Assembly: GCA_963575645.1 (NCBI GenBank)
Contig: OY754464.1
Location: forward strand, 59,494,948-59,558,947
Source of the DNA: Xanthostigma xanthostigma
Taxonomy: Eukaryota; Arthropoda; Insecta; Raphidioptera; Raphidiidae
DNA: 64,000 bases
Direction of reading: 5' to 3'
Positions 22,148-64,000 of the stretch are shown here, in pieces. How positions within the stretch are numbered: position 1 is the first letter of the stretch; each line of letters begins with the position of its first letter. The notes beneath the pieces were generated by a model, which did no database searches, was not told where the DNA came from, and worked only from the letters and a program-made list of their open reading frames with translations. The position numbers and the translations under genes were made by a program.

Positions 22148-22605
22148 AGCGGTCGCTGCACACTAAACTGGAAACACTACTTGGACTTCTGCTGGCCGGC
22201 TGGCTGGGTACAAAGCTAGAAATTACGTTACTGCGGGCTCGTCTGCTAGCTCACAAGATAGATTTTAAAATTATAACAGGAGCTATTTTTCTTGCTACGT
22301 CCTCTGCTTGTTCTGAGCAAGAACTAATCAGGAAACAGTATCTTGTCACGTGGGCGACATGAAAAAACGCCCAACAACCAACATGGCGTCATTCTACTCA
22401 GAGTCAGACAAGAGACACGTTTTGCTCTGTCTTATATTTGAACTGTCACTGCGCGCGTACCAGATCTATCGACAAAACAAGCTTGAAAAGACGTCTCGTG
22501 CGAAGCGAGCACATAAAAGCAATTAAGAAAACCAGCGCTAGAAAACTAGTAGTCAAATCTAGCAAGGAGTCTAGCGGCAAATCCAGCCTCGTGGTCAGCG
22601 GTCTT
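22148..22605. mobile_element. PIF/Harbinger-like MITE, uninterrupted copy
   Basis: Same family as 49352-50256. It shares CGCTGCACAC at the left, ATGGCGTCATTCT, GAACTGTCACTGCGCGCG, AACCAGCGCTAGAAAACTAG and the inverted right end. It preserves the unoccupied site CACGTTTTGCTCTG (about 22416-22429), where the 49-kb copy carries a 475-bp insertion. Confidence 0.7.
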
Positions 22606-22717
22606 TACAAGTAAAAGCCAAAGAGTTCGGCAGACTTTTAGGGATGGAAGATAAATGCTCAGAAAGTTGGAAATAAAAAAATATTTTTAGAACCTCTACT
22701 GGTACCGAAACGTGTTA

Positions 22718-45900: not shown

Positions 45901-45904
<4 letters not shown>

Positions 45905-45992
<88 letters not shown>
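45905..45992. repeat. (TA)n microsatellite, about 44 units
   Basis: Uninterrupted AT repeat; produces an IYIYIY-type spurious frame. Confidence 0.95.
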
Positions 45993-45998
<6 letters not shown>

Positions 45999-46057
45999 GG
46001 CTAGCTATATTCAGCGGCGCTGGGCGTGGGTCGGAACTGACGTGACAGGGCACTTAC

Positions 46058-46181
46058 CTTGAGAGATGTTAGCGAAGCCAAGGTCACCCAACTACTAAGC
46101 TGTAGGTAAAGGGAAAGATGTTCAGAATGGGCGCCAGATCTATATTGACCTTAGCTTGAGTCACTGCAGGATCGATCACTC
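46058..46181 (-). ncRNA. Candidate spliced exon B (non-coding or 5' UTR)
   Basis: Minus strand: acceptor TTTATTTGCAG at 46182-46190, a 124-nt exon, then a consensus donor GTAAGTG (46051-46057). All three frames contain a stop, so it is not an ordinary internal coding exon. Together with the exon ending at 47305 it suggests a transcript running right to left. Gene identity unknown. Confidence 0.35.
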
Positions 46182-46788
46182 CTGCAAATAAATCTTAAGG
46201 GTCCTGCCAGCAAAAAATAACAACTCGAACGTAATGATCAAAAATTTAATAAAATAATTAATAATATTAACAAGAGTGATTAGCATATAAACTTTTGGCA
46301 AAATGCCCAGATCAGTACGCTACTGATTCAATTAGCGACGATATAAATTTTTACTTCAGTACCGTGAAGCGGTGATCATTAGTTTCCACGTAAAATACAA
46401 AGTGATACACAATAAACGTAATAATGGTAACAATTTATCTACAAAAAAAATCTATCATTCAGATCGCCTACGGATGAGGTTCAAAGTCCAACAATCGATC
46501 CGTCAAAACTACAACCAAAACGGCAACACAAACGTAACGCGACTCTAACAGCGACGATAAGACAAACCTCATTCGTAAGCTAAAAACTTATCTCAACAAC
46601 TCAAAATACAAATTACAACACGTTAAAATAGTTACAAATACAATGTCGAAATATTTTAATTAAACGTTGCTAACTTTATTTAACCAAATGTTAACAAACC
46701 GACAAGCGCAGTGTGAAATGAACTTTTCTTTGGAACAGCGCTATCCGTTCACAATATCACAACTGTCAAAAATAGTTCTGCCGGAAGG

Positions 46789-46970
46789 GCCATCAAACAC
46801 TGTAATCTAAAATTCAGTTAAGTTCAGCACGCCACTGACAAATTGACATACACAATGTTAAGCTTTAATTTAGCCTGAATGGCCGTCAAAACACTGCAAG
46901 TATGAAATTCATTTAAGTTTAGCACGCCACTGGCGAATTGACCTAACACAATATTAGGCTTTATCAACAA
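46789..46970. repeat. Tandem duplication, about 93 bp x 2
   Basis: Shared blocks GGCC(A/G)TCAAA, AGCACGCCACTG, AATTGAC and the AATRTTARGCTTTA pattern; lies in the putative intron between exons A and B. Confidence 0.7.
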
Positions 46971-47304
46971 ATGCAATTTCTTTATGATGGAAACTATGAT
47001 CCAACGCAGTCTAAGCACAGGTTCACGAAACAAAATAACAAAATAATTATTTCAGACCGTGAGAATTTATTGATGAAATGTTCGCATAAGGCGGCATGGC
47101 AGCATGAAGGCAACGTAGTGACGGGTGCTAGCGCGCGCAAACTTATTTCACAGTTACGACGTACGTCAATCAAAAACGTGCATTTTATTTAAAGTTGAAT
47201 TTAAGATGCGACGTACGTTTGATAAAGAATTTTAAAAGTCAAACGCAAATTATGATTTTAAATTGAACAGTTACGTAATATAGCACAAAACGTTATCACA
47301 CTAC

Positions 47305-47665
47305 CTGTAGGATGCAATGAAGGCTTTCCAGGACTCGTAGCCCTTTTCCAAGACAACTGGACTGGATTCAGTTAGCTGAAGTGATCGACCCAGCAACGCT
47401 CCAAGCCTCGTTACAGTGGTTCTTGTCAATGGTAGTAGAATCACAGCGTTTTTTATGCTGAACGGACGCCACGTGCTAATCAGGTACAACTCCAAACACG
47501 ATAACAATACGCAATTCACTAAAAGCTTTTCCCAACAGAAAAATAACAGGATGGCTTCAATTTCATAGCCACCGTACTCAATAATTTCGAAACCAACGAT
47601 CAAAACTCAAAAAAACACAACGGCAATACAATACGATACTCTCACAACGCTTGCCGGCAACCGAA
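47305..47665 (-). ncRNA. Candidate first exon A
   Basis: Minus-strand, GC-richer block ending CATTGCATCCTACAG with a GTAGTG donor at 47304. A frame of about 100 codons reads to the donor (GTTTVTRLGALLGR-like text) but stops 10 codons into exon B. The 5' limit is approximate. Best read as a UTR or long non-coding exon. Confidence 0.3.
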
Positions 47666-47892
47666 TCTCTGTATCTCGCTATTCAAAAAATCTTTACCAG
47701 TCGACATTGTACCTAACCGGACACAACACGTTTTATAACTATTCGCCAGAATCAATCGGGTAAAGGGGTCCACACACACTCAAAATTTTGTTGTGAACTT
47801 TTTACCGCCATTTGACGTTGTAGGTTCACGGGAGTGGTCGCTAAGCTCAGGGGTCGTCCTGACCTCTTTCTTACGACTAAAGCTAACCCGTT

Positions 47893-47895
<3 letters not shown>

Positions 47896-47939
<44 letters not shown>
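47896..47939. repeat. (TA)n tract at left edge of duplication copy 1
   Basis: AT repeat of about 22 units, followed by GTATATGGTTTAGGG, where identity with the 61.5-kb copy begins. Confidence 0.9.
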
Positions 47940-47945
<6 letters not shown>

Positions 47946-48986
47946 GGTTTAGGGTTAATGATGGCCAATTTTTTAAATAGCTTTGTTTAATTAAGACTTA
48001 CTTAATTAGCATTGGTTTAAGACGAATTTTTTTTCTTTTCATAATTAACAGAGATAATTAGCTTGAATTTCTTATTAGTCTTTTTGGCGGCGAATATATG
48101 TTTGAATGCAGGTATCTGTAATGCCGACAAGAGAGCCACCAAATGGCATAATACTTCAGTGGTCATAATTGAAATATAACTGTTTTGTTAAAAACATTAA
48201 TAATCATTAATTATATGGGGCAATTGCTTATACTATCAAGACCTACACATTTTATAGGGATTATAATTCATAATAAAAGTTGAATAACCGCCGAAATATA
48301 ACTGTTTTCACGAAAAAAAAAAAGTGACTGTTCAAACAGAATGACAATATTAGGTATCCGGTTGCAATTGTTAATTAGCTTTTTTAAACACAATCTTGTG
48401 TTGTTATCCAAAAATAACATTAAGACGGGATAATTTGTTTCCTATGGAAGCAATATTTATGAAATATGTCAAAATATATTCATTAATTGTTTTAAATTTA
48501 TAATTTTTCTACAAAAAATGATTCTACCACAAGTGTTTATATTATGTCAACAAAAGTTACATATATTTTAGGTCTAAATTTTATAGCGACGTAATAATTA
48601 TTAACATTTGTGATTATGATTTTATCAATCTTTAATTTAACATTTGAAGAATGCGAAAGTAACTCTTAAAAGCATAATTTTAAAATTTATAGGTCATTAG
48701 GTCTGTAATTTATTGAATATTTCCTATTTTCTCTATAAACAAATTTTCTAAACGACATATTTTACATTTTTGACCTTTAAAATGTTCATAATAATAATAT
48801 TTCGTATGATTTTGGCACAAGAAATAGATTAACTAAATTTTTGAATAAATTTTAAGTATAAATATTTCAAGTGTATTTTTATTTTCTTTAAAAATACTGA
48901 CTTATGCTATTTCTCAAATATACGGATTTCAAAGTTACCGTTTAATATATTTAGACAATAAAACGAAAAATTTTAAACAAAACGTG

Positions 48987-48992
48987 TTTATT
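48987..48992 (-). promoter_or_regulatory. Polyadenylation signal AATAAA
   Basis: Minus-strand AATAAA 66 bases after the stop of the terminal exon at 49058-49240. Confidence 0.5.
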
Positions 48993-49057
48993 TAAAAAGA
49001 TTCTACACATTGTTGGTATCACATTGTACGCTAACTAACATTATCAACAGTATATCT

Positions 49058-49240
49058 TTATAAATGACTTGAAATATCGTATATGTAGATTGTGGAAGGA
49101 CCCTCAGCCCGGCTTAGATGAGCATTTTCCAGGTTTTCGGCGTGGCGTCTCCTGTTATTAACTTCAACCGCAGAAATAAATACTTGTTTTTTGATGCTTG
49201 TTCCCGAATTTTGGAAAATATAGCAATACGTTGTTCTTCT
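49058..49240 (-). CDS. Terminal coding exon of an unidentified gene
   Basis: Minus strand: a strong acceptor (a T-rich tract then AG, 49241-49256) opens a 61-codon phase-0 frame. It reads RRTTYCYIFQNSGTSIKKQV, then FISAVEVNNRRRHAENLENA, and ends GPSTIYIYDISSHL-stop at 49058, with AATAAA shortly after. A second frame (REEQRIAIFSK...) is also open but stops earlier at 49114. I prefer phase 0 because the upstream exon at 50480-50667 ends in phase 0. Function unknown. The intron contains two nested MITEs, so it has grown recently. An identical copy lies at 62646-62828. Confidence 0.45.
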   Translation of the reverse strand, partial: RRTTYCYIFQNSGTSIKKQVFISAVEVNNRRRHAENLENAHLSRAEGPSTIYIYDISSHL

Positions 49241-49351
49241 CTAAAAAAAACAACAAAAATATTTAAAAGGTTTAGCTGTGGTGGCCCTATACACATACAA
49301 AATTTAAAAAATGTACCTAACGTAAAACGCTGACATTTTCTGTATGTGTTA

Positions 49352-50256
49352 AGGCCGCTGCACACGAGGCTAGAAACGCTACTAGGAGTTCTGCTATTCG
49401 GTAGGATGGGTACGAAGCTGGAAATGACGTCACTGCTGGCTAGCTCAGAAGATAGGTTTTAAAATTAGAACAGGGGCTATTTTCCCTGCTAGATTTGTTG
49501 CTAGGTATGAGCAAGAACCAATCAGGAAGCGGTATCTTCACGTGGGCACTTGACAAACGCCCACATGGCGTCATTCTGCCAGACAACAGACACGTTTAGC
49601 CGGGTATTCATTAGAGAGCCGTAACTGTAACATGTGTGACAGTAACGAGGTTCTAGTGTGTACGCGTGTTACAGTTTAGGCTCACGACGTCACCGGAACG
49701 CTTTCACCGAGCGTACTCATTTTGCGAGCTGTAACTGTAACCAAACAGATCAGAAACGAAGTTCTAGTGTGTACGAGAAGGCCAGTGGCCTGACAAGCCG
49801 GATTTATCCGCAGTTTCCTCTGACCATTCACTTATGACTATAAACTCGAATATTCTATTGTTGATACAACAAACAAGTTACAACCTCTCCTCTTGACGTC
49901 CACAAGCGCACTGCGAGCGCTTTTTGATTCGCGGCAAAAACCGACAATCGTCGGCTCGCTGCAAGCGGCACGCGTACCGATCGCAGCAGGTTTACGGACC
50001 ACGTACACACTATGTTTTTGGTAACAGTACATGCAACGGTTACGGTTACGGCTCGCTAATGAGTACCCGGCTTTTTGCTCTGCGTTTAATGTTTATATTC
50101 GAACTGTCACTGCGCGCGCACCAGATCTATCCACAAAACACGCTTGAAAAATAGTCCCGTATGCTTAAAAGCAATCAAGAAAACCAGCGCTAGAAAACTA
50201 GTAGGCAAATCTAGCAAGGAATCTAACAGCTTTTCTAGCCACGTGTGCAGTGGCCT
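49352..50256. mobile_element. PIF/Harbinger-like MITE with nested insertion
   Basis: Inverted ends AGGCCGCTGCACACGAGGCT and AGCCACGTGTGCAGTGGCCT, flanked by TTA (49349-49351 and 50257-50259), the 3-bp duplication typical of PIF/Harbinger. Without the 475-bp insert it is about 430 bp, like the 22148-22605 copy. No transposase. Confidence 0.8.
49598..50072. mobile_element. Nested 475-bp MITE
   Basis: Inverted ends AGCCGGGTATTCATTAG and CTAATGAGTACCCGGCT, with subterminal CCGTAAC repeats. Flanked by TTT on both sides. The 22.4-kb relative has the uninterrupted CACGTTTTGCTCTG, so exactly one TTT was duplicated on insertion (3 bp, PIF/Harbinger-like). Confidence 0.85.
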
Positions 50257-50260
50257 TTAA

Positions 50261-50382
50261 ACTCAAAGACCAAAAAGGCTCATTGAAGTAACACGAATTT
50301 CGCGATGTGGATGTTTTACAGTTACCACAACGCTTTGGGAGCTGTTTTGTAGCTCAATGAGCGTTATCGGTCTTTGAGCGTA
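50261..50382. mobile_element. Small MITE, about 122 bp
   Basis: Left ACTCAAAGACC...GGCTCATTGA and right AGCTCAATGAGCG...GGTCTTTGAGCG are inverse matches. Confidence 0.6.
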
Positions 50383-50479
50383 ACATTTGCACTAATTTTT
50401 GAGACATACTAATCGTTTCCTACAATTAAACCGATATACAAAAATTACTTAACATTAAGATTAGATAGAAAAAGATTAC

Positions 50480-50667
50480 CATAATAGATTGATTTTCAAA
50501 TATTGTGTTGACAACTGGTCTTCGAACGAACCAACGAAAGACGGATTCCAGTTGCTTCGAATCATCATACGTTGTGTTGTCGAAGGTGACCATTTCGAGA
50601 AAATCTGATTTCACAATAATCTGGGTAGTAACGATAGCTCTGAACCGTTGATTTATATTTTTTTTAC
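50480..50667 (-). CDS. Internal coding exon, unidentified gene
   Basis: Minus strand: acceptor ATATACTTTTAG (50668-50679), a 188-nt exon entered in phase 1, and donor GTAATC (50474-50479) left in phase 0. It encodes KKNINQRFRAIVTTQIIVKS, then DFLEMVTFDNTTYDDSKQLE, then FRWFVRRPVVNTIFENQSIM. Splicing to 49058-49240 keeps the frame (phase 0 to 0). No family recognised. A decayed twin lies immediately upstream (50814-51001). Alternative: a relic exon of a mobile element, but the splice sites and open frame favour a host gene. Confidence 0.45.
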
Positions 50668-50813
50668 CTAAAAGTATATAAAAATTAACTTCGAAAATCT
50701 TTTTCTTCACATATAGTAAGCAAAATATATGAAATTATTATTCAAATAACGAAATTAAACCGAGACACATACCACATAACCACATAACATTACGATTAGA
50801 TAGAAAAAATTAC

Positions 50814-51001
50814 CATAAGATTGATTTGGAAATGTGCTGACAACAGTGGTCTCCGAATGAACCTTCGATCCACGAATTACAAGTTGCTTCGAGTCGACTA
50901 AACTGTCGTATAGCTTTCGATCGTGGCTATTTCCTGAATATCCGATTTGAAAATGGTCTGTAACGATAGCTCTAAACCGCAGATTTATTTTTTTTTTTTA
51001 C
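50814..51001 (-). pseudogene. Decayed tandem twin of the exon at 50480-50667
   Basis: Same length (188 nt), same acceptor (ACACTTTTAG) and donor (GTAATT) positions, and shared RFRAIVT and DSKQL segments. A longer A-run near its 5' end (12 versus 8) puts stops in every entry frame, and internal shifts break the alignment. It may once have been a mutually exclusive alternative exon. Confidence 0.5.
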
Positions 51002-51329
51002 CTAAAAGTGTATAAAACATAACGTCGAAATTCTTTTTTTTTCATAATACATAGTAATAACTAGAAAATATATGCATTTTACCTGTATCGTTAAAAAACG
51101 AAATATAGCTAAATTCACATAATATTGTAGATCTGTTTGTTTAAAACGTCGAATTTAAATACTGAAACCGCATAAAGTATACTATATGTAAAAATTCAAG
51201 AGTTTAACCTTACATTTATGAATTGACAGCTCCGAATCTTAATCAAAACCATAGACTATGGAGGTTAAAACATTCAATATATTGTACGCTAACAATAACT
51301 GAATCGATTTGAACCCTGTTTTACCGACT

Positions 51330-53928
51330 GCGGATTTTTCTAGCGCTAATTTGAAAATGAAAGTTAGGCATTATTTTTGCTTATAATTAACTCATTTTTA
51401 GACTGATTTTGAAATTATTTATATGCAATTACATAATTTTTGATAAATAAATACGTCATTTTATTGTAACTGAAGATTTTGTGAATTTTTATAATTGAAC
51501 AAAATAATCTCACATTAAAACGAAATACATCAAATTGTAGAAAAATATGCAGTCAACTTGCTAATAATATGCGACCATTATATTATGAAGATAGAAAACT
51601 GAACATATTTTTAATGTTAACGTGGTTTTTACAGAGCTGGAATAACTATTTGTTTTTTTCTATATATTTCAAAACTTTACAATAATGCTTTGTTTGCTAA
51701 TAGTGGCGAATTTTAAGGATTGTGTATTTTTCTGATTTCGTCAAAAATTTACATAACTCTGAAAAACATGTTTTTGGGAAAAAAATCTGTTACTCTGTTT
51801 GTGAAAAAATAAATTAAACGGATGATGTACTCAAGGGCATAGATAAGGGGAAGGTTGAGGGGGTAATTATCCCTCAGGATCATAATAATAAAACAATAAA
51901 ACTGAAAAAAAACGAATACCTGACTAAAAATAAAATTTAGAAAATCTTGATTAAAAAAAAATTGGTTTGGGCATTAATATTTTGCTTGACACATTTTTTC
52001 GTGAGTATTCTTGTGTGATATTTAAAAAAGGGTAAAAAAAATTCTTTTTTTTTTTTGTTTTAAAGAGAAAAAAAAACTTTCTTTTCTTTCTTATACTATA
52101 TCAAATGTCAATATTTTTGAAGATCAGATAAATAATCCACTGTTGAAAATTTTCAAAATTAATACTTAATACGCCTCTGGAAAAACCACCGCATTACATC
52201 CACTTCGGCATTAAATAGAATTTCTTTAAATCTTTCTGTATATATAAAAGGAAACCGTTACTGATTGACTGATTGACTGACTGACTGGTCTATCAACGCA
52301 CAGCTCAAACCGCTGAACTGATTGGGTTGATATTTGGCACATAGATAGTTATTATGACGTAGGCACCCACTAAGAACGGATTTTTGAAAATTCAACCCCT
52401 AAAAGGGTGTAACGGGGGTTTAAAATATGAATGGAGAATCAACATACAGCACAAACCATTGTACGGATTGGGCTGAAATTTGGCACACATGATATTATAA
52501 CGTAAGCATCCGCTAAAAGCAGACTTTTGAAAATTCAACCCATAAAAGGGTTTAACGTAGGTTCAAATTTGCACTGACAAAAATCGTAGATGTCCCCCTG
52601 GATTTTAACGATTTTTTAAATATGGCCATTTTATCAGAGACCTTTACACACCCTTTCCACCCCCTTAGGATGCGAATTTTAAAAAATCCCTTCTTAACGG
52701 GTGCTTACGTCATTAAAAGAACCTTCTGTCCAAATTTCAAGTTTATATCTCAAGCGGTTTGACCTGTACATTTATGAATCAGTCAGTCAGGACAAACTGT
52801 TGTATTATATATATCGTAGGCGTTTTTAAGCGCCAATTTGAAACTGAAATCTAGGCAATATCTTTGCTTATAATTTACTCATTTTTAGTCCGATTTCGAA
52901 GTTATTTATATGTAATTACATAATTTTTGACCAATAAACCCGTTTTTTTGTCATAAATAAAGATTTTGACCATTTATATAATTGAAAAAGTTAATCTTAA
53001 ACCAATATAAAATTTATGAAAATGTTAAAAATACGCAGTAAACTTTCTACAGATATTCGTGCATTATATTGTGAATATTAGAAAACTAAAAATATTTTTG
53101 ATGTTAAACGTGAATTTTATAGGGTTGGACTAACGATTTGTATGTAATATACAAATTTCATTATTTTTCTTTCAAATTTAATCGAAATTTTGATTTTAAA
53201 TTTTTAAAATAATTTTTTCTTCACCTAGGATGACGGATTTTAAGGGCTGCGTATTTTTTTGAGTTCGTCAAAATTTTTCAAAATTTTACAATAACTTTCC
53301 GTTTTGAGGCTTTTTGACTCTGAAAAACATGTTTTTTGGAAAAAGTCTGTTAGTCTGTTTATGAAAAAATAAATCAAACGGATGATGACCTCAAAGGCGT
53401 AGATAGGGGGTAATTACCCCCCAGAATTATAATAATAAAAAAATAAAACTGTTAATAGTTCGAACACCTGACTAAAAATAAAATTTAGAAATACTTCTTG
53501 AAAAAATTTTTTTAAAAATGGTTTGGAAATTAATATTTTACTTGACACCTTCCTTCGTGAGTATTCTTGTATGATATTGAGAAGACTGTAAAAAAAATGA
53601 TATTTTTACTTTAAATTTTCACTTACAATCCAACCCCTAAAAGGATTTAACAGGGATTCAAATTTGCACGGACAAAAATCATGTGTCTCTCATTTTAACG
53701 ATTTTTGAAATATGGACTTAAATAGTGCCGGATTAGTAAAACTCTACTGTATTTTGAAAATAAAAAAAATCAGCTGTTCTTTTGTTTTGACTGGATCTGT
53801 CAGTTTTGCATAACGTGGAACATATTACGCAAATATCATATTAAATACTAGCCATTACCCGCGTCACCTCACGCGATATCAGAAATTTTCGTTTCTTTAT
53901 GATACTATATCAAATGTCATATTTCATA
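51330..53928 (+). repeat. Diverged tandem duplication (about 1.5-kb period)
   Basis: 51330-52130 and 52815-53928 share, in order, TTGCTTATAATT(A/T)ACTCATTT, ATTACATAATTTTTGA, AAACATGTTTTTTGG-type R1 blocks, AAACGGATGATG and GTGAGTATTCTTGT. Between them lies a Helitron (52235-52810). The end of the second unit contains R1 sequence (53755-53928: CAGCTGTTCTTTTGTTTTGA, CACCTCACGCGATATC). Confidence 0.6.
52235..52810 (+). mobile_element. Short Helitron, copy 3 (degenerate)
   Basis: TCTGTATATATAAAAGGAAA start and GACTGACTGACTGG repeats. The CTATCAACGCACAGCTC body is partly duplicated; the CTAG end is not clear. Confidence 0.55.
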
Positions 53929-54384
53929 CTAGCCGTTACCCGTGGCTTCGCACACGATGGAGACGAAACACGGATGCATTCCCATTATTTCCTTCTCGAC
54001 GCAGACTCCCCTAATAAATTTTAAAATTAATGACGTTCACGTGATCAATGTTCTGACAAACCTTGAAAATGACACCCATGTTGATTTTTAGACTATTTAC
54101 CTCGCTTCTGATACAGCATGAAAGACGCGTTGATTTATTTGTTGACAGGAGCAATCCTGCGCATTTTCGAATTAACGCATGTATAATATGATTTCTGTTA
54201 CACCCTTTAAGTGGCTGAATTTTCAAAAATCTGTTCTTAGCGGATGCCTACGTCGTAATAACTATATGTGTGCCAAATTTCAGCCCAATCCGTTCAGTGG
54301 TTTGGCCGGTGCGTTGTCTGTCAGTCAGTCGCGGAACTCTTGTATATATAGATCAGTCAGTCGCGGAACTCTTGTATATATAGA
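53929..54384 (-). mobile_element. Short Helitron, copy 4
   Basis: On minus it starts TCTATATATACAAGAG and ends GTGTGCGAAGCCACGGG...CGGCTAG before T. The 5' 33 bp is tandemly doubled. It sits in the R1 fragment. Confidence 0.7.
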
Positions 54385-54789
54385 TAGAAGATAGATTTAT
54401 AGCTTAATACGGCTCTGGGAAAACGTCAGTGCATTAAATCCACTTCACATAAAAATAGAATTTCTTCACGGCTGACAGATTAAATCTTGGTTCGTTGAAT
54501 GTTTTTTACTTCTTTTTTTCTCAAATTAAATTATATTACTAAGCTCAAAGTGTCGCAAAATTATACACCGATTTTCAAACTATGATAAAATTTTGTGAGA
54601 TAATTTTTGTGCAAAACATTTAGTAATTATTTGGACAAGTTTAAAAGTATACTGGTTCAATTAGCACAGATGAATCTGTTAAAAATTTTTAAAAATAATA
54701 CTTAATACGGCTCTTGAAAACTCAATGCATTAAAACGACTACAACTGCTTCAACATTAAATAGTAGAATTTTCAATTTCTTTACAGTAT
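54385..54789. other. No gene seen
   Basis: AT-rich sequence, partly similar in style to the 51-53 kb repeats. Confidence 0.35.
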
Positions 54790-55425
54790 TCGTCCGTGCA
54801 TTCTAATGGTATATAACGTGTGTTTCAATACGGAGTTTTGCTCAGAATGTGAATAGTCTTGTACGTAAAAAGTGTTTTTTTCAAAATTTCAGTATTCAAC
54901 TGAGTTAAAATAAATCAAATGTAATCTGTATATAATATTATTTTGTGGAAATAATTAACACTTTTCTTAAAATAGCGATAACAAAATTTATAAATAGTTG
55001 TGTTGCGTTCAGTCTAATGTATGACAAACGTGTTAATCAATACGAAGTTTTGCTCAGAATGTGAATAGTCTTGTACGTAAAAAGTGCTTTTTTCAAAATT
55101 TCAGTATTCAACTGAGTTAAAATAAATCAAATATAATCTGTATATAATATTATTTTGTGGAAATAATTAACACTTTTCTTAAAATAGCGATAACAAAATT
55201 TATAAATAGTTGTGTTGCGTTCAGTCTAATGTATGACAAACGTGTTAATCAATACGGAGTTTTGCTCAGAATGTGAATAGTCGTCGTGTACGTAAAAAAA
55301 TGCTTTTTTCAAAATTTCAGTATTCAACTGAGTTAAAATCAATCGAATATAATCTGTATATAATATTATTTTGTGGAAATAATTAACACTTTGCTTAAAA
55401 TAGCGATAACAAAAATAACAAATAG
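54790..55425 (+). repeat. 212-bp tandem repeat, about three units
   Basis: The block GGAGTTTTGCTCAGAATGTG begins near 54831, 55043 and 55255, exactly 212 bp apart. Units two and three are nearly identical; the first has a diverged start. It ends where a PIF/Harbinger-like element begins. Confidence 0.9.
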
Positions 55426-55428
55426 TAA

Positions 55429-56341
55429 AGGTGTGTTTACACTGTAAAAATGGATATTGGAAAATTGTATTCTACAGAAGGTACAGTGGAGTGTAACAAG
55501 TATTCGTACACCTAACTTTGCATAAAAAAAAACAACAACACATATTTGATAGACTTTCTTTGGTTTTTTTTTTATATAAAAAGTATAAGAATAGGGTATC
55601 AGTGTCTATGCTTCGCGAGGTGTTTCTTTACTAGAAATTGATTGTTTTCGAATTTATTTTGGGGTGGTAAATAGGATCGACGATTGAGTATTCCATGCTT
55701 TATGTTTTGGATCGTTATCTTGTAAAAATATCCAACCATTATTAAAACCTAATGCTGCTGCACTGGACAGAAGTTTCTCTTTTAGAATATTAATGTATAT
55801 CATTTACCCAATATTTCGCGCAGATCTACTATGATAATCGTTATTATGTAATACGTTCCGAACGGCACTGATCGAAATACAATTAATTTCTTGTAATAAA
55901 CGAACGAAAGTTTTAGAAGATTTTATGAGCTTTCATTTAGTATCAAACAAATTTGCCCAACGACGCAACGTTTTCGAGATATAAGCTAAAAAGTTTTCAG
56001 ATTGATAATTAACTGCGGTGCGTAGTCTCCGGAACTGCTCATCCAATTTCAATTTTTATTTCATCAATATTTAGAATGGATCTTCAGGATGAACATAGGC
56101 TACATATTATCGCGCGAAAGTAAAATCGCTTTTTATGGAGACCAAGTTTGCAACGCAGTCGACGAAAAAAACGATGGCAATCTACAAATTCAGGCCAAGC
56201 CGGCCGCTAGTTATGTATAAAAATAAACAAAAATTGTTAATTTCAAGTAAGTATTTGTATGTTAACCAAGAACTGATTTAAAACAAATCATCTTTGGAAA
56301 AAATCAATTCGATAATATTAGTTTCTGGTGTGAACGCACCT
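55429..56341. mobile_element. PIF/Harbinger-like element hosting a Tc1 relic
   Basis: Inverted ends AGGTGTGTTTACAC and GTGTGAACGCACCT, with TAA on both sides (55426-55428, 56342-56344). Most of the interior is the Tc1-like insertion at 55484. Confidence 0.75.
55484..56215 (-). mobile_element. Tc1-like transposase relic
   Basis: The end CAGTGGAGTGTAACAAGTAT after TA is a Tc1-type inverted repeat. Minus-strand reading near 55730-55790 gives AAALGFNNGWIFLQDNDPKH, the catalytic QDNDPKH motif of Tc1 transposases. Near 56150 it gives FRRLRCKLGLHKKRF, matching the N-terminal DNA-binding region. The frame is interrupted several times and the left-hand partner repeat was not found. Confidence 0.75.
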
Positions 56342-56344
56342 TAA

Positions 56345-56675
56345 TTTGACCAGAAATATTCTAAACTCTGAAATAGGTAAATATTTTCCTTTGATCAGTG
56401 TTCTTTAATTTTTTGGTAAAACTGTACTGCAGGCATATAGAGAAATGAGTTCGCAGATATTTCTATCTTTTTCCTTTACATATTACCAGAGACTTCGCTG
56501 CCATGGAGGTATAGACTATAGTTGGCCACTGCTTATTAAAATGACGCAATGCTTGTTAAGCCATGCTGTTTTTTGATTTATATTTTGTGCCTGACATTTT
56601 TCTACGATATTTTATATTTGTCAGAGACAAGTTTATTGTGTTGTTCGTGCTATTATCTACATTTGTTTGTTGTAG
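56345..56675. other. Upstream of the 56.7-59.3 kb gene; no exon chosen
   Basis: No clear promoter or first exon is visible. The hydrophobic frame from 56549 is probably intron read-through into the exon at 56676. Confidence 0.35.
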
Positions 56676-56767
56676 TGTTTGGATTTAACACACCGCCAAC
56701 AAAATTTCATTTTCAAGGTTACATTGTCATTGAAGTAAAATGCACTATTTCCCAGCTAATGAAAAAA
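56676..56767 (+). CDS. Upstream coding exon of the RRxW(T/S)TPE gene
   Basis: Acceptor TTTGTTGTAG, exon reading FGFNTPPTKFHFQGYIVIEV then KCTISQLMKK, and a consensus donor GTAAGT at 56768. It leaves in phase 0, which fits the next exon. Earlier exons are not identified. The mobile elements just upstream (PIF/Harbinger plus Tc1) may lie in the preceding intron. Confidence 0.4.
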
Positions 56768-57069
56768 GTAAGTACTTTTTAACAATAATTATCGGTAAAC
56801 ATTATGAGGTTGAAATAAGCCTAATGGTTTTTAGAATTGGCGAAAATGTATATATTTTTTGTAAGTTCTGTTACAACTCGACGAGATGGCCATTTTTAAA
56901 AGTATACCTACAATTTTTAACTCGCGTTTTTTGAAAGTATGGCGTTCCCTTACGCCTTAAAGAATTATACTTTACTTAATTAAATAAAACGCATAAATGA
57001 ACATTCACACAAATTCTCAAAATTATTATATTAAATAAATGTATCAAAATGAAGTTTTATTGTTTTCAG

Positions 57070-57280
57070 ATCCAAAATTTGTCAAGAAGCGAAGTAAATA
57101 TAATATGTCCCCGGGGTGTCACTTCGCAATTATTTGCTTCTGGTTCAAATCCGATACTTGTTTCGAAATGCAGCGAAGAAGGCATTTTTATCGAAAATTT
57201 GCGTCATGGCGTGTCGGAACAGAGTGACACCGATATCGATACAGAGGAAGATAAAAACACTACATGTGAAACCGGTTTGG
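57070..57280 (+). CDS. Internal exon of the RRxW(T/S)TPE gene
   Basis: Acceptor TTGTTTTCAG (57060-57069) and donor GTAAAA (57281). The 211-nt exon is open in phase 0: IQNLSRSEVNIICPRGVTSQ, LFASGSNPILVSKCSEEGIF, then an acidic stretch SDTDIDTEEDKN. It leaves in phase 1, exactly the entry phase of both downstream last exons. The acidic linker before a small basic domain is typical of nuclear proteins. No function can be named. Confidence 0.5.
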
Positions 57281-57392
57281 GTAAAATATTATATTATTTT
57301 TAAACGTTTTCTAAATTAACATGACAGAAGACAAACCGTTTTAATATTCTTGTATGTCTATTCGATATCCCACGTTTTGATATTGTTTTTAG

Positions 57393-57592
57393 ATATAGAG
57401 CTCGATCTCAAACCTAATATTATCAGGCGAACATGGACCACTCCGGAAAGGTATGCTGCGAAAAGGCATTTGTCTACATTTATTCCAGATGAGAAGATCC
57501 CCCCCATAAATGATTGCGAAAGGATTGTAAAATCGGTTAAAGATTTTCAAAAACGAACAGGAATGCAGCTTCGACTATCGGCTCATAACTAA
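57393..57592 (+). CDS. Alternative last exon 1 (RRTWTTPE domain)
   Basis: Acceptor ATTGTTTTTAG, phase-1 entry (G|AT, Asp). Encodes IELDLKPNIIRRTWTTPERY, then AAKRHLSTFIPDEKIPPIND and CERIVKSVKDFQKRTGMQLR, stop at 57590-57592. The pattern RR.W(T/S).PE..A...........(K)(I/V)P....C......F..R matches a small C-terminal domain I have seen in many uncharacterised animal proteins; its fold is unknown to me and may be Myb/SANT-like. Compare 59120-59337, which codes for the same domain. A donor-like GTACAATA follows the stop, so it might instead be a poison exon. Confidence 0.5.
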
Positions 57593-57746
57593 ATCAACAG
57601 ACAGAAGTCGAAAGGTACAATATGTTTTTTTTTATTTGTAAACACTTCTTCGCGGACTTCAAAGGTTAATCGTGTGCTAATTTTCTATCGGAAACCTTTA
57701 CTTAAAATATGGGATCTCTGTGAGTTAATTGAATGTTTGGTTAATA

Positions 57747-59002
57747 CAGGGTGTTCACGCGAGGAACAAAGACAAGTTTATTGCAGAAATGAAGACGCTT
57801 ACAGAAACATGTTTCAGACAAAAGTTGTTAGGTTCGATCTGCTCTACAGCTGGAAAATATTTTCAGCTATACAGGTTGTCCTATTTAAGCGGGGCAGACC
57901 AAAGTTATGTTTTCTTTAATGCAGCATCCTGTTTTTGTTTGATTTTTGAATTCTGCACCTAATTGTTAATAGAAACTGTAAGGGAAACGTTGCTCGAAAA
58001 ATTAGCAGTTTTTGAGTTATTCAAGTTTTTTTGAAATTTTTGACATAATATGCAGATCTTTACCTAAAATTCGAGTTAGCCCAAACGAAAAACTTTATCA
58101 AACTGATATTTTGCAGATCAATAGGTAATGAAAGAGCAAATTAATTTTTGTATTCAAAAAAATAATTTACTATACAGGGTGTTCAAAATATCGTACTTCT
58201 TTTATCTAACTTAAATCGCGTATAACTTGTGAAAGTTAAATACCACGGGGTGGTTTTTATGCCCGAATTGCTTTCTTTAGGATATTTACTAACACTTTTA
58301 TAAAGGGTTCCCTAGACCTAAATCTGGTATTTTCGTGTTTATTGCGACTTGAATGCGATATTGCGAAATTTCACCTTTTAAAAGTACTGTCGCAGTGTGC
58401 TGTGAAGTATTTTTACCTTAACAGTTGAAAATAGTCATTTTAAAACTCATATCAGTAAATAATTAGTAAATATCCTAAAGAAAGCAATTCGGGCATAAAA
58501 ACCACCCCGTGATATTTAACTTTCACAAGTTATACGCGATTTAAGTTAGATAAAAGTAGTACAATATTTTGAACCCTGTATAGTAAATTATTTTTTTGAA
58601 TACAAAAATTAATTTGCTCTTTCATTACCTATTGATCTCCAAAATATCAGTTTGATAAAGTTTTTCGTTTGGGCTATCTCGAATTTTTGGTAAAGGCCTG
58701 CATATGTCAAAAATTTCAAAAAAACTTGAATAACTCAAAAACTGCTAATTTTTCGAGCAACGTTTTCCTTACAGTTTCTATTTACAATTAGGTGCAGAAT
58801 TAAAAATCAAATAAAAACAGGGTGCTGCATTAAAGAAAACATAACTTTGGTCTGTGCCGCTTAAATAGGACAACTTGTATAGCTGAAAATATTTTCCAGT
58901 TGTAGAGCAGATCGAACCTAACAACTTTTGTCTGAAACATGTTTATGTAAGCGTCTTCATTTCTGAAATAAACTTGCCTTTGTTCCTCGCGTGAACACCC
59001 TG
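57747..59002. mobile_element. 1.26-kb foldback element with a second one at its centre
   Basis: Ends CAGGGTGTTCACGCGAGG and the inverse, flanked by TA on each side (57745-57746, 59003-59004). The arms are about 425 bp. Exactly at the centre a related element (58174-58579, CAGGGTGTTCAAAATATCG ends, also TA-flanked) is itself a palindrome. Lies between the two alternative last exons. Confidence 0.85.
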
Positions 59003-59119
59003 TATAATAATTTTAGTTAAAAACATCAACACAAAATTTTCACCTCTCTCCTCTGAACTGAACTGAACTGAATTAGAACTTTTAAGTCACATGTTCATAA
59101 TATTTTTGTTTTTTTACAG

Positions 59120-59337
59120 ATTCCCGGAGTCGTAGAAGTTGGTCAACTCCGGAGAAAAAAGTAGCACGTCAATTATTTGCATACGAGATAGCTGCAGGGA
59201 AAATTCCGACATCGCAGAAATGCTTACGAACAGTTTCTGAATATAATGTGTTAAAGAAAAGGTCCGTCGCTCATATAAAGTCGTGGGTCCAAGCCGAATG
59301 CAAACGACAGAAATTAAATAATAACGCCCCTTGTTGA
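59120..59337 (+). CDS. Alternative last exon 2 (RRSWSTPE domain)
   Basis: Acceptor TTTTTTTACAG (to 59119), phase-1 entry giving Asp as in the other last exon. Encodes DSRSRRSWSTPEKKVARQLF, then AYEIAAGKIPTSQKCLRTVS, then EYNVLKKRSVAHIKSWVQAE and CKRQK, stop TGA 59335-59337. Aligned with exon 1 it keeps RR-W-TPE, A, I, KIP, C-R-V and KR. The C-terminal (HIKSWVQ) half is closer to the known domain pattern than exon 1. AATAAA occurs about 450 bases downstream. Confidence 0.55.
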
Positions 59338-59438
59338 AATTCGCTTGTGAAGCTAGTTGTATTTACTTTTTATGTTAATTTATTGCTTGTAAGTTAAATG
59401 CTAGTTTGTTAATTGAAAATAGCTTTTTTGTAACTATA

Positions 59439-59610
59439 CAGGGTGAGTCAGACCACCAGTACCGCTCGTATTTTTTCGAAATCGGTTAGTCGTAGAGAGT
59501 TGTGTCAAAAATCTGCATTATAAAAGCCCTAATAAAGAATCGAATACACAACTCTCTACGGCTAACCGTTTTCGAAAAAAACGACCGCTACGGGTGGTCT
59601 GACTCAGGAC
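59439..59610. mobile_element. Foldback MITE, about 172 bp
   Basis: CAGGGTGAGTCAGACCACC and inverse GGTGGTCTGACTCAGG-like end; arms continue through TCGAAATCGGTTAG and AGAGAGTTGTGT. Lies in the 3' region of the gene. Confidence 0.75.
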
Positions 59611-59918
59611 ACAGCTTAACGAATACATGTTTTTTTGAGATATAACAAAATGCGGTAATTTGCATCTTAGACCTTCATAGAAATAAGAAATTTATTTTAT
59701 ATTAAAAATACTATATTTAAAATATATTTTTACAAATACTATGTGTTTGGCTAATAATTCATACTTTGTGAAAATTTCTATTTACAAGAAAATAAAAAAT
59801 ATATAAATGCGTATTTATTAATTTGAAACTTTCAATATACATGTCTTTGAATCTGCCTTCTGTCTCCTAGGGATTTTTCGAAGAAACGATTCTGAAATTT
59901 TTTAAATTAAATATACTT

Positions 59919-60706
59919 TATGGTTTTTTAAAAACCGAACACCTGATTTATATTCCCTTAGGTTGCATTCAAAGGAATTTTACCCCCCGTAATAATCTTC
60001 ATAGTTTCAGGGGGGAAATCGATTGCCGGATTTTTTTATGACCTAGTGCATTCCGATGCAGTGCAATGCACTTGCGCACTCATTTTTTTAAAGAGGATTC
60101 GTCCCTGCAAATACCCCCCGCACCCTTCATCTCAAATCTTTTCCCCTCGCCTATAAACGGTTCGCGCTCTCCCGACGCTATTTTTAAAGCTAGAGGGTTC
60201 TGGTAAACGCCAAATGAAAGAAAAAGAATCAGACTACAGATCCTTCAGGCGAATCATTTGAAAAACAGTTTCGCCTACGTGTGAAATATTACGTAACTTA
60301 TTATTTTTTTCAAAAGGTTGTAAGTTTTTTCAAGAATTTTTTTTCAAAAAATTCGCCTGAAGGATCTGTAGTCTGATTCTTTGTCTTTCATTTGGCGTTT
60401 ACCAGAACCCTCTAGCTTTAAAAATAGCGTCGGGAGAGCGCAAACCGTTTTTAGGCGAGGGTAAAAGATTTGATATGTTGGGTGCAGGGGGTATTTGCAG
60501 GGACGAATACTCTTAAATGGGGACCCCGTTAAAAAAAATGAGTGCGCAAGTGCATTGCACTGCACCGGAATGCACTGGGACCTAGGTCATAAAAAAATAG
60601 GCAATCGATTTCCCCCCTGAAACTATGGAGATTATTACGGGGGGTAAAATTCCTTTGAATGCAACCTAAGGGAATAAATCAGGTGTTCGGTTTTTAAAAA
60701 ACCATA
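59919..60706. mobile_element. 788-bp foldback element
   Basis: Arms of about 320 bp from TATGGTTTTTTAAAAACCGA to its inverse. They include CACCTGATTTAT, TTACCCCCCGTAATAATC, AGTGCAATGCACTTGCGCAC and CCTTCAGGCGAAT, with a short AT-rich centre near 60312. No coding. Confidence 0.8.
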
Positions 60707-60861
60707 CAGTATATGAAATTATTTTAACATGCTTGGGTAAAGGTAGGAAAAAGGCCTTTATTCTGTAGGAATTGCGGGAAACAGTTTTAAATGCCAAATA
60801 CTTAAAGTAAACATTTGTTAATGCGTTCTGAAGACACAGGTTTGACAATATCACTGCGACA

Positions 60862-60945
60862 TATAATAATCGAAACGTCAATTGAATTATAATTAAATAA
60901 TTTGTTAATATGTATGAAAAATTGGTGGATAATTTTACTTATTAA
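60862..60945. repeat. Penelope-like fragment
   Basis: TCGAAACGTCAATTGAATTA...ATTGGTGGATAATTTTACTT parallels the right arm of 28373-28731. Confidence 0.5.
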
Positions 60946-61095
60946 CTTTAATTTTACCTATAAAATATAAAACATGTATTAATTATCTTAGTAAGTATTA
61001 AAATGATAAATAATTACTTATTAACTTTAATTTAACCAAGAAAATATAAAACATGTATTAATTATCTTAGTAAGTATTAAAATGATAAATAAAAA
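60939..61095 (+). repeat. 78-bp tandem duplication
   Basis: TTATTAACTTTAATTT...AAAATATAAAACATGTATTA...AAAATGATAAATAA occurs twice in a row with few differences. Confidence 0.8.
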
Positions 61096-61462
61096 TGATT
61101 TTGTTTTCTAAGGAAAAACTTCAGTGAAGTTCTCAAAGCACAGTCAACATTGTTTTCATTTGTATAATAAATAAAAAACTAATTATATTTTATCTCTATC
61201 TAGGTATATCTATCTTTATCGGCTAAATGCCAATAATAATATATATATAGGTCATAAAATTCTCTAAAATATTGCTTGCGCGTGCCATCTCCTATACAAA
61301 TAATGATCTGCTTAGTTGCAACTTTTAACAATGCGTGACTCCACGCGTAGTCGTCAAAATTCATACTTCAGAGAATTGGTATCCGATGCCGGTGGCCATA
61401 GTCAACAAATTGTCCGACTTGTGATGGATGCGTCATTCTACGCGCCACCAATAACCATAAAC

Positions 61463-61465
<3 letters not shown>
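61096..61465. other. No gene seen
   Basis: Spacer before the (TA)n tract. 61448-61465 (GCCACCAATAACCATAAACC) is inversely related to sequence just after the tract. Confidence 0.4.

Positions 61466-61527
<62 letters not shown>
61466..61527. repeat. (TA)n tract at left edge of duplication copy 2
   Basis: About 31 AT units, then GTATATGGTTTAGGG. The tract is longer than at 47.9 kb and has a different left flank. Confidence 0.9.
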
Positions 61528-61533
<6 letters not shown>

Positions 61534-62645
61534 GGTTTAGGGTTAATGATGGCCAATTTTTTAAATAGCTTTGTTTAATTAAGACTTACTTAATTAGCAT
61601 TGGTTTAAGACGAATTTTTTTTCTTTTCATAATTAACAGAGATAATTAGCTTGAATTTCTTATTAGTCTTTTTGGCGGCGAATATATGTTTGAATGCAGG
61701 TATCTGTAATGCCGACAAGAGAGCCACCAAATGGCATAATACTTCAGTGGTCATAATTGAAATATAACTGTTTTGTTAAAAACATTAATAATCATTAATT
61801 ATATGGGGCAATTGCTTATACTATCAAGACCTACACATTTTATAGGGATTATAATTCATAATAAAAGTTGAATAACCGCCGAAATATAACTGTTTTCACG
61901 AAAAAAAAAAAGTGACTGTTCAAACAGAATGACAATATTAGGTATCCGGTTGCAATTGTTAATTAGCTTTTTTAAACACAATCTTGTGTTGTTATCCAAA
62001 AATAACATTAAGACGGGATAATTTGTTTCCTATGGAAGCAATATTTATGAAATATGTCAAAATATATTCATTAATTGTTTTAAATTTATAATTTTTCTAC
62101 AAAAAATGATTCTACCACAAGTGTTTATATTATGTCAACAAAAGTTACATATATTTTAGGTCTAAATTTTATAGCGACGTAATAATTATTAACATTTGTG
62201 ATTATGATTTTATCAATCTTTAATTTAACATTTGAAGAATGCGAAAGTAACTCTTAAAAGCATAATTTTAAAATTTATAGGTCATTAGGTCTGTAATTTA
62301 TTGAATATTTCCTATTTTCTCTATAAACAAATTTTCTAAACGACATATTTTACATTTTTGACCTTTAAAATGTTCATAATAATAATATTTCGTATGATTT
62401 TGGCACAAGAAATAGATTAACTAAATTTTTGAATAAATTTTAAGTATAAATATTTCAAGTGTATTTTTATTTTCTTTAAAAATACTGACTTATGCTATTT
62501 CTCAAATATACGGATTTCAAAGTTACCGTTTAATATATTTAGACAATAAAACGAAAAATTTTAAACAAAACGTGTTTATTTAAAAAGATTCTACACATTG
62601 TTGGTATCACATTGTACGCTAACTAACATTATCAACAGTATATCT

Positions 62646-62828
62646 TTATAAATGACTTGAAATATCGTATATGTAGATTGTGGAAGGACCCTCAGCCCGG
62701 CTTAGATGAGCATTTTCCAGGTTTTCGGCGTGGCGTCTCCTGTTATTAACTTCAACCGCAGAAATAAATACTTGTTTTTTGATGCTTGTTCCCGAATTTT
62801 GGAAAATATAGCAATACGTTGTTCTTCT
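62646..62828 (-). CDS. Second copy of the terminal exon
   Basis: Same sequence as 49058-49240, with its AATAAA at 62575-62580. Whether upstream exons accompany it cannot be seen, since the matching region would begin past position 64000. Confidence 0.4.
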   Translation of the reverse strand, partial: RRTTYCYIFQNSGTSIKKQVFISAVEVNNRRRHAENLENAHLSRAEGPSTIYIYDISSHL

Positions 62829-62939
62829 CTAAAAAAAACAACAAAAATATTTAAAAGGTTTAGCTGTGGTGGCCCTATACACATACAAAATTTAAAAAAT
62901 GTACCTAACGTAAAACGCTGACATTTTCTGTATGTGTTA

Positions 62940-63844
62940 AGGCCGCTGCACACGAGGCTAGAAACGCTACTAGGAGTTCTGCTATTCGGTAGGATGGGTA
63001 CGAAGCTGGAAATGACGTCACTGCTGGCTAGCTCAGAAGATAGGTTTTAAAATTAGAACAGGGGCTATTTTCCCTGCTAGATTTGTTGCTAGGTATGAGC
63101 AAGAACCAATCAGGAAGCGGTATCTTCACGTGGGCACTTGACAAACGCCCACATGGCGTCATTCTGCCAGACAACAGACACGTTTAGCCGGGTATTCATT
63201 AGAGAGCCGTAACTGTAACATGTGTGACAGTAACGAGGTTCTAGTGTGTACGCGTGTTACAGTTTAGGCTCACGACGTCACCGGAACGCTTTCACCGAGC
63301 GTACTCATTTTGCGAGCTGTAACTGTAACCAAACAGATCAGAAACGAAGTTCTAGTGTGTACGAGAAGGCCAGTGGCCTGACAAGCCGGATTTATCCGCA
63401 GTTTCCTCTGACCATTCACTTATGACTATAAACTCGAATATTCTATTGTTGATACAACAAACAAGTTACAACCTCTCCTCTTGACGTCCACAAGCGCACT
63501 GCGAGCGCTTTTTGATTCGCGGCAAAAACCGACAATCGTCGGCTCGCTGCAAGCGGCACGCGTACCGATCGCAGCAGGTTTACGGACCACGTACACACTA
63601 TGTTTTTGGTAACAGTACATGCAACGGTTACGGTTACGGCTCGCTAATGAGTACCCGGCTTTTTGCTCTGCGTTTAATGTTTATATTCGAACTGTCACTG
63701 CGCGCGCACCAGATCTATCCACAAAACACGCTTGAAAAATAGTCCCGTATGCTTAAAAGCAATCAAGAAAACCAGCGCTAGAAAACTAGTAGGCAAATCT
63801 AGCAAGGAATCTAACAGCTTTTCTAGCCACGTGTGCAGTGGCCT
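62940..63844. mobile_element. Second copy of the PIF/Harbinger-like MITE with nested MITE
   Basis: Duplicate of 49352-50256; nested element at 63186-63660, with the same TTA and TTT duplications. Confidence 0.8.
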
Positions 63845-64000
63845 TTAAACTCAAAGACCAAAAAGGCTCATTGAAGTAACACGAATTTCGCGATGTGGAT
63901 GTTTTACAGTTACCACAACGCTTTGGGAGCTGTTTTGTAGCTCAATGAGCGTTATCGGTCTTTGAGCGTAACATTTGCACTAATTTTTGAGACATACTAA

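Follow-up and report, generated by a model that had tools for sequence, protein, structure and literature searches.

What lies behind an exact multi-kilobase direct repeat that begins twice in a TA microsatellite is the question raised by the stretch of the Xanthostigma xanthostigma genome analyzed here, a window of 64,000 nucleotides (C1:59494948-59558947, where C1 stands for contig OY754464.1) from an assembly of 623 Mb in 28 contigs. The initial annotation placed the start of this repeat at 47937, with a length of 2,476 bp and an offset of 13,588 bp, and offered two explanations: an extremely recent duplication, including the last exon of a gene, or an assembly artefact. We show that the repeat belongs to a large dispersed DNA transposon residing in (TA)n tracts, the longest copies of which encode a protein resembling tyrosine recombinases.

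Two neighbouring transposon copies account for the exact repeat

In a base-by-base comparison of the two blocks, window positions 47896-50412 and 61484-64000 proved identical throughout their 2,517 bp, without a single mismatch. The exact repeat and its offset of 13,588 bp were therefore correctly described, while its limits had to be moved, as part of the TA tract had been omitted. A match of this kind is not due to chance. Both blocks begin in (TA)n, the first in a (TA)22 tract at 47896-47939, which forms the left junction of copy 1, and the second in a (TA)31 tract at 61466-61527; their left flanks are unlike each other, as had been noted. The end of the match at 64000 is only the edge of the window, and the next 23 kb of the contig continue both copies. 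They form two complete elements arranged head to tail, identical, 13,523 bp each between the end motifs, and joined by the single (TA)31 tract, which is common to the right end of copy 1 and the left end of copy 2. Copy 1, a complete 13.5-kb form, occupies 47940-61465 on the plus strand. Copy 2, on the same strand, starts at 61528 and runs past the window, with its right-end pattern located about 11 kb further, at C1:59569976-59570003. The partial inverse seen earlier at 61.4 kb is real: it is the right terminal inverted repeat of copy 1 (61444-61463, minus strand), standing before the second TA tract and agreeing with the left one (47946-47965, plus strand) in 17 of 20 positions. In a sister form the agreement is 19/19, with TGTATGTGGTTTAGGGTTA on both sides.

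A 901-bp probe taken from the block gave at least 40 genome matches with 94-100% identity, distributed over C1-C11, C17, C18, C19, C21, and C23 (a lower bound, with 40 of 48 candidates scored). When the ends were searched as patterns with up to three mismatches, the 28-base left-end pattern was found in 39 places of the 623-Mb genome and the right-end pattern in 38, while the reversed control patterns of both ends gave 0 genome matches. From these, 37 both-ended pairs were assembled, leaving two left ends and one right end unpaired. The pairs fall into length classes of approximately 13.5 kb (17 pairs), 17.1 kb (12), 18.1 kb (2), and 20.6-21.3 kb (2), with single pairs of 12.2, 12.5, 14.9, and 15.1 kb. 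The flanks differ among the dispersed copies sharing both ends. With many copies, the same two ends, and unrelated flanks, the unit is a dispersed DNA transposon; "duplication" was thus the wrong frame for the block, which is the left part of an element with 39 left ends in the genome. Equally, the idea that the 2.5-kb block duplicates the last exon of a gene found no support: its longest stop-to-stop frame has 114 aa and matches no Pfam family, and a captured host gene's last exon was rejected as the identity of the repeat.

The position of the ends relative to TA tracts was consistent across the genome. A 35-place pattern including 11 TA bases recovered all 39 left ends, 38 of them exactly and one with one mismatch. 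The corresponding TA-bearing pattern recovered 36 of the 38 right ends, with two to three mismatches, all in the arm, and the TA part exact; the two exceptions were a right end on C4, which adjoins an imperfect TA tract, and one on C23. After merging repeated views of one junction, 35 rows were left in the junction table. Three subtype-B left rows list a tract length of 0, as the walk halts at TATGTATGT, with TA tracts being visible in the sequence. Since the element sits in such tracts, the breakpoint of the repeat lies inside the TA tract, as had been supposed. For one copy, at C1:62410452, there is no right-end match; it may be a truncated or a longer copy, or a satellite may interrupt it. 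The stretch C1:62396454-62397053, the expected end of a 13.5-kb copy, contains a short tandem repeat of the GATCGACCAGAAAA type. An Rfam search gave no match.

Age of the copies and origin of the tandem pair

To the age of the unit speaks a comparison of eight window-type copies over 13,523 bp, namely those 8 of the 17 copies of this length class with both ends inside read stretches and 12-14.5 kb apart. Five of them (both window copies and those on C6, C5, and at C1:36.5 Mb), located on three chromosomes, are identical. The other three carry two private substitutions each, which gives six changes in a total of 108,184 bp. That each of the six is private to a single copy fits a burst originating from one source. 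Substitution rates in butterflies are about 3 × 10^-9 per site and generation; with such a rate, which may not be that of this host, the burst would be of the order of 20,000 generations old or less. The transposon burst is recent, and the view that the repeat arose extremely recently is supported by it.

The tandem pair itself could have arisen otherwise than by a second insertion: once a single transposon had inserted, unequal exchange between TA tracts, or slippage between them, could have produced a local tandem duplication of 13.6 kb. The two copies are identical and in tandem, and judged by end coordinates they are the only tandem pair among the 39 left ends. However, the copies on C6, C5, and at C1:36.5 Mb are equally identical, and what is repeated corresponds precisely to a single element. 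We thus regard a local duplication as unlikely, and it would concern only the arrival of the second copy and not the nature of the unit.

The earlier interpretation of the repeat is partly supported. As to the artefact it proposed, a join of two haplotypes is not needed for the identity of the blocks, since the C5, C6, and C1:36.5 Mb copies equal copy 1 just as its neighbour does. What stays as a rival is that two near-identical copies, dispersed in the genome, were wrongly joined here. Such errors are invited by 37 both-ended copies of 12.2-21.3 kb, and the element is carried by C17, C18, C19, C21, and C23, of which C18 has just 74.6 kb; in these contigs the assembly may have been interrupted by long identical copies. 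Against this, the outer flanks of the pair are distinct, with unit Y (described below) on the left and another repeat on the right, and the identity between copies is genome-wide and not particular to this joint. We consider a mis-join very unlikely.

Arrays of repeats at TA tracts

The window pair is part of a longer array, in the order repeat X, (TA)44, unit Y, (TA)22, copy 1, (TA)31, copy 2, (TA)n, and another repeat. Repeat X ends at 45904 and is followed by the (TA)44 tract (45905-45992). Unit Y (45993-47895, plus strand), a dispersed repeat 1.9 kb long, is flanked by (TA)n at either end and has a weak terminal inverted repeat (11/14). Its left end was found beside TA in 60 places, that of the window included, with a pattern that holds eight TA bases and is therefore biased towards TA. 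At C1:51416.0 kb a distance of 79 bp separates the right end of a copy from the left end of a Y unit, and on C18 the arrangement is X-(TA)-Y followed further on by Y-(TA)-element. Repeat X forms one of the flank classes, its TA tract being the site of several of the junctions read, and an uninterrupted repeat X with its TA tract is present at genome locus L007, a paralogue. No allelic empty site was found. The possibility that C18 is a second haplotype of this locus was rejected; it represents a paralogous array, because the similarity is 96-97% in its Y unit and 82% in its X part.

Coding capacity of the short and long forms

In the frames of the 13.5-kb form no intact enzyme was found. The 17-kb form, read on C11, is the same element in which window positions 56428-59028 are replaced by about 6.1 kb with zinc-finger frames; its RING frame reached PF14634 with E 4.3e-6, 0.9 bit under the cut-off. 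Read over its last 13 kb, the 21-kb copy on C5 contains a second RING-like frame (E 1.4e-5, below the cut-off) as well as an intact frame of 628 aa, behind which lie two 3′ exon-like frames. The 628-aa frame resembles tyrosine recombinases, as detailed in the next section. Remnants of the 3′ part of this gene are preserved in the window element at 57238-57620 (81% identical in DNA to the copies of 17 and 21 kb) and, as a second 3′ exon-like region, at 59028-59435 (94%), both on the plus strand. The whole element thus does hold 3′-exon-like sequences, at 57.2-59.4 kb, and they belong to its own recombinase gene. We read the window copy as an internal-deletion, non-autonomous form.

Accessory frames of the 21-kb copy lie at L053:7058-7729 and L053:6164-6664. 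One is CCCH/RING-like, under the Pfam cut-offs; the other, which has no Pfam match, resembles the N-terminal part of BEN-type proteins. We take both to be cargo. For the Pfam analysis 39 frame scans were made on a subset of the frames of the 13.5-, 17-, and 21-kb copies, including the same frame in different copies and one frame scanned twice. No viral gene turned up in these 39 scans, and no wider search was made. In a search of viral contigs, five stretches fitted a pattern and none was confirmed. An LTR or LINE element was rejected as the identity of the unit, as long terminal direct repeats are absent and the Pfam matches of the scanned frames include no reverse transcriptase.

Resemblance of the encoded protein to tyrosine recombinases

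The protein was aligned with three relatives of 44, 34, and 27-28% identity, and R317, K366, R442, H468, and Y477 were invariant in all four sequences, in the order found in recombinases. A profile built from them was compared with Escherichia coli XerD, XerC, FimB, FimE, and IntS and with lambda Int. Columns 354-474 aligned with the catalytic part of these enzymes, such that R442, H468, and Y477 fell on XerD R247, H270, and Y279, with the same spacing of nine residues from H to Y in both. The score of the profile was 28.2. None of 200 column shuffles, which preserve composition only, reached this value (maximum 21.8), and the reversed profile scored 15.9.

Several results weigh against this assignment. 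The HH probability of the XerD-type profile alignment was 5%, K366 is placed two residues off the XerD lysine, the first arginine (R317) lies beyond the aligned part of the profile, and the first His of the HxxR motif is replaced by Thr in three of the four members and by Asn in one. The element's protein had no match in the recombinase families of Pfam, PHROGs, and NCBIfam. PF00589 was not reached over its cut-off, one of the four members, and not the element's own, giving E 0.013, and in a genome search PF00589 was located in 84 other places and none at this gene. PDB sequence searches yielded a single match to an enolase-type enzyme (E 0.17) in one run and four matches (best E 0.022) on the zinc-finger part in a second. 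On the strength of the conserved residues, their order, and the profile comparison we regard the protein as a putative tyrosine recombinase.

Relatives of the recombinase-like gene

A genome protein search was performed with a 497-aa query, with 86 of 194 candidates scored. The protein was present at 100% in three places (C5, C19, and C21), each gene being 3.2 kb from the right end of the element. The approximately 21-kb form is accordingly represented by two copies with both ends and a third gene copy with the right end only; at C21:50882-55595, where this 100% intact gene and right end are found, no partner left end was found in the contig. Among the scored matches there were, in addition, at least three intact ones at 81%, at least two at 44%, and at least one at 34%, and others ranging from 71% down to 23%, many of them partial. 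Of the 86 scored matches, 22 lie on C10, mostly at 10.3-14.9 Mb, and many are broken; we view this region as an old home or a degenerate region of the recombinase family.

An older relative of the element, 92% alike in the left 1.7 kb, starts in (TA)n at C5:14748.8 kb. An 81% gene at C5:14773460 is again 3.2 kb from a right end, which is 75-80% like that of the element and abuts (TA)10. If this left end and this gene belong to one element, with C5:14767000-14777499 unread between them, its length would be about 29 kb. Among the 86 scored rows, 45 are short fragments of other recombinase kin, covering residues 429-484 of the query with about 40% identity. On C11 and C5 a (TA)n junction lies about 0.7 kb away from such a fragment, which belongs to the repeat facing a copy of the element or its older relative. 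Genes and fragments of these relatives are near TA junctions, and TA tracts are thus occupied by distinct lineages that carry a protein of this type.

Proposed mechanism of movement

The observations above comprise dispersed copies with inverted ends in TA tracts, the young age of these copies, and, in a long copy that shares the ends, an intact recombinase-like frame. On these grounds we consider it probable that the unit is a giant tyrosine-recombinase transposon that uses (TA)n as its attachment site and stacks end to end with other TA-bound repeats. We infer an active recombinase, a circle, movement in trans, and the following order of events. The recombinase of the approximately 21-kb form would recognize, in trans, the ends of the 13.5-kb forms lacking the enzyme, binding the inverted arms at the termini, on either side of a TA-rich core. 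The ends would be joined into a circle, and the core would recombine with a (TA)n target, so that TA is left at both junctions. A TA tract beside a resident copy would stay a target, and thus a second copy could dock adjacent to it; the tandem pair may have formed in this way, by docking of one window copy in the TA tract of the other.

Further points tell against a recombinase as the mover. Neither a target duplication nor a core is legible inside (TA)n, the TGT-type ends together with the TA-rich target also resemble Ginger2, and the 21-kb copy is known from the part that follows its first 8.1 kb. In addition, a 49-aa frame of the window element (55657-55803, minus strand; no Pfam match) looks by eye like a remnant of a Tc1-type DDE transposase. 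The same transposon might be moved in trans by a DDE transposase, Ginger2-like or MULE-like, with the recombinase-like gene as cargo or in another role. Such movement is possible because TA tracts hide any target duplication, and short inverted ends fit a DDE enzyme. According to published accounts, endogenous nimaviruses of crabs with a Ginger2-like integrase enter (AT/TA)n (PMC10871703), Ginger2 favours RTATAY and has TGTNR ends (PMC2836005), and plant MULEs that target TA exist (PMC4486113, PMC5907723). On the other side, neither a DDE family nor an H2C2/DDE integrase was among the Pfam matches of the 39 frame scans, there was no MULE transposase in the two long copies (17 and 21 kb), read in part, and the distance from the recombinase gene to the right end is equal in two lineages 81% alike. 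We judge a DDE enzyme an improbable mover and prefer the tyrosine recombinase.

If movement by a tyrosine recombinase is true, site-specific integration by a eukaryotic transposon of this kind becomes directly testable, as the ends, the target, near-identical copies without enzyme, and an intact candidate enzyme occur together in one genome. It would also mean that the stacked, non-nested microsatellite arrays of plant MULEs have a counterpart in an animal, where the enzyme is unrelated, and it cautions against taking every exact repeat of several kilobases joined at TA tracts for an assembly error.

Inserts within the element

By eye, an insert with inverted repeats (GGCCGCTGCACACG...CGTGTGCAGTGGCC), bounded by TTAA, can be seen inside the element at window positions 49353-50256 and 62941-63844. 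We read it as an old nested piggyBac-like MITE. Parts of the insert at 49353-50256 are 75-80% like window 22151-22625. Harbinger was considered as a mover of the element and rejected, since the Harbinger-like frame, at genome locus L027, sits by eye inside an inverted-repeat insert of its own.

Comparison with known systems

Giant transposons moved by a tyrosine recombinase and carrying accessory genes are known from fungi as Starships, in which a DUF3435 captain gene is placed at the 5′ end. Unlike in these, the gene described here is located nearer to the 3′ end, and it gave no match to that family. Besides the animal Cryptons compared next, further Crypton groups are present in Repbase. With Cryptons the element shares the nature of a DNA transposon with a tyrosine-recombinase-type enzyme, the circle model, and non-autonomous derivatives (PMC3212892). 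For animal Cryptons, the text available reports no terminal repeats and no C-terminal domain and names no TA target (PMC3212892), in contrast to the inverted ends (17/20 and 19/19), the length of 12-21 kb, and the (TA)n location of the present element.

Two kinds of crustacean nimaviruses invite comparison. Those with a tyrosine recombinase insert into telomere repeats, with (TAACC/GGTTA)n as target, and their recombinase is zinc-binding, with five of seven key residues found (PMC10871703). Large size, a simple-repeat target, and a recombinase with incomplete key residues are shared with the element, whereas its target is (TA)n and those are viruses; the comparison is one of published descriptions. 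The endogenous nimaviruses of sesarmid crabs have 46-bp inverted ends, a Ginger2-like integrase, and (AT/TA)n insertion, and clear inverted ends are, according to that paper, unique to the Ginger2-type members (PMC10871703). Ginger2 itself is similar in its TGT-type ends and has an AT-rich target, RTATAY, yet its autonomous members are 2.8-6.7 kb long, with inverted ends of 45-297 bp and a DDE integrase (PMC2836005), an enzyme not found in the frames scanned here. The plant elements SaTar and MuTAnT are likewise bound to (TA)n (PMC5907723, PMC4486113), and non-nested arrays at microsatellites like those described for SaTar (PMC5907723) occur here as well. Both are, however, MULEs with a DDE enzyme, and SaTars are small (PMC5907723, PMC4486113), while here the host is an insect, the size 12-21 kb, and the enzyme recombinase-like.

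In literature searches, DDE elements that target TA and tyrosine-recombinase elements that use another target appear separately. Among the titles and beginnings of abstracts of the best 10-20 entries of each search, no combination of TA targeting with a tyrosine recombinase was found; Repbase was outside this search, and a catalogued relative may exist. The element stands a slightly better than even chance of representing a new superfamily of giant animal DNA transposons (12-21, perhaps 29 kb) with inverted ends, a zinc-finger tyrosine recombinase, and a (TA)n attachment site. Its several lineages, with recombinases 81, 44, 34, and 27-28% identical to this one and dozens of short fragment repeats, would then share one genome, stacked with each other and with other TA-bound repeats in end-to-end arrays, one of the lineages being still active or very recently so.

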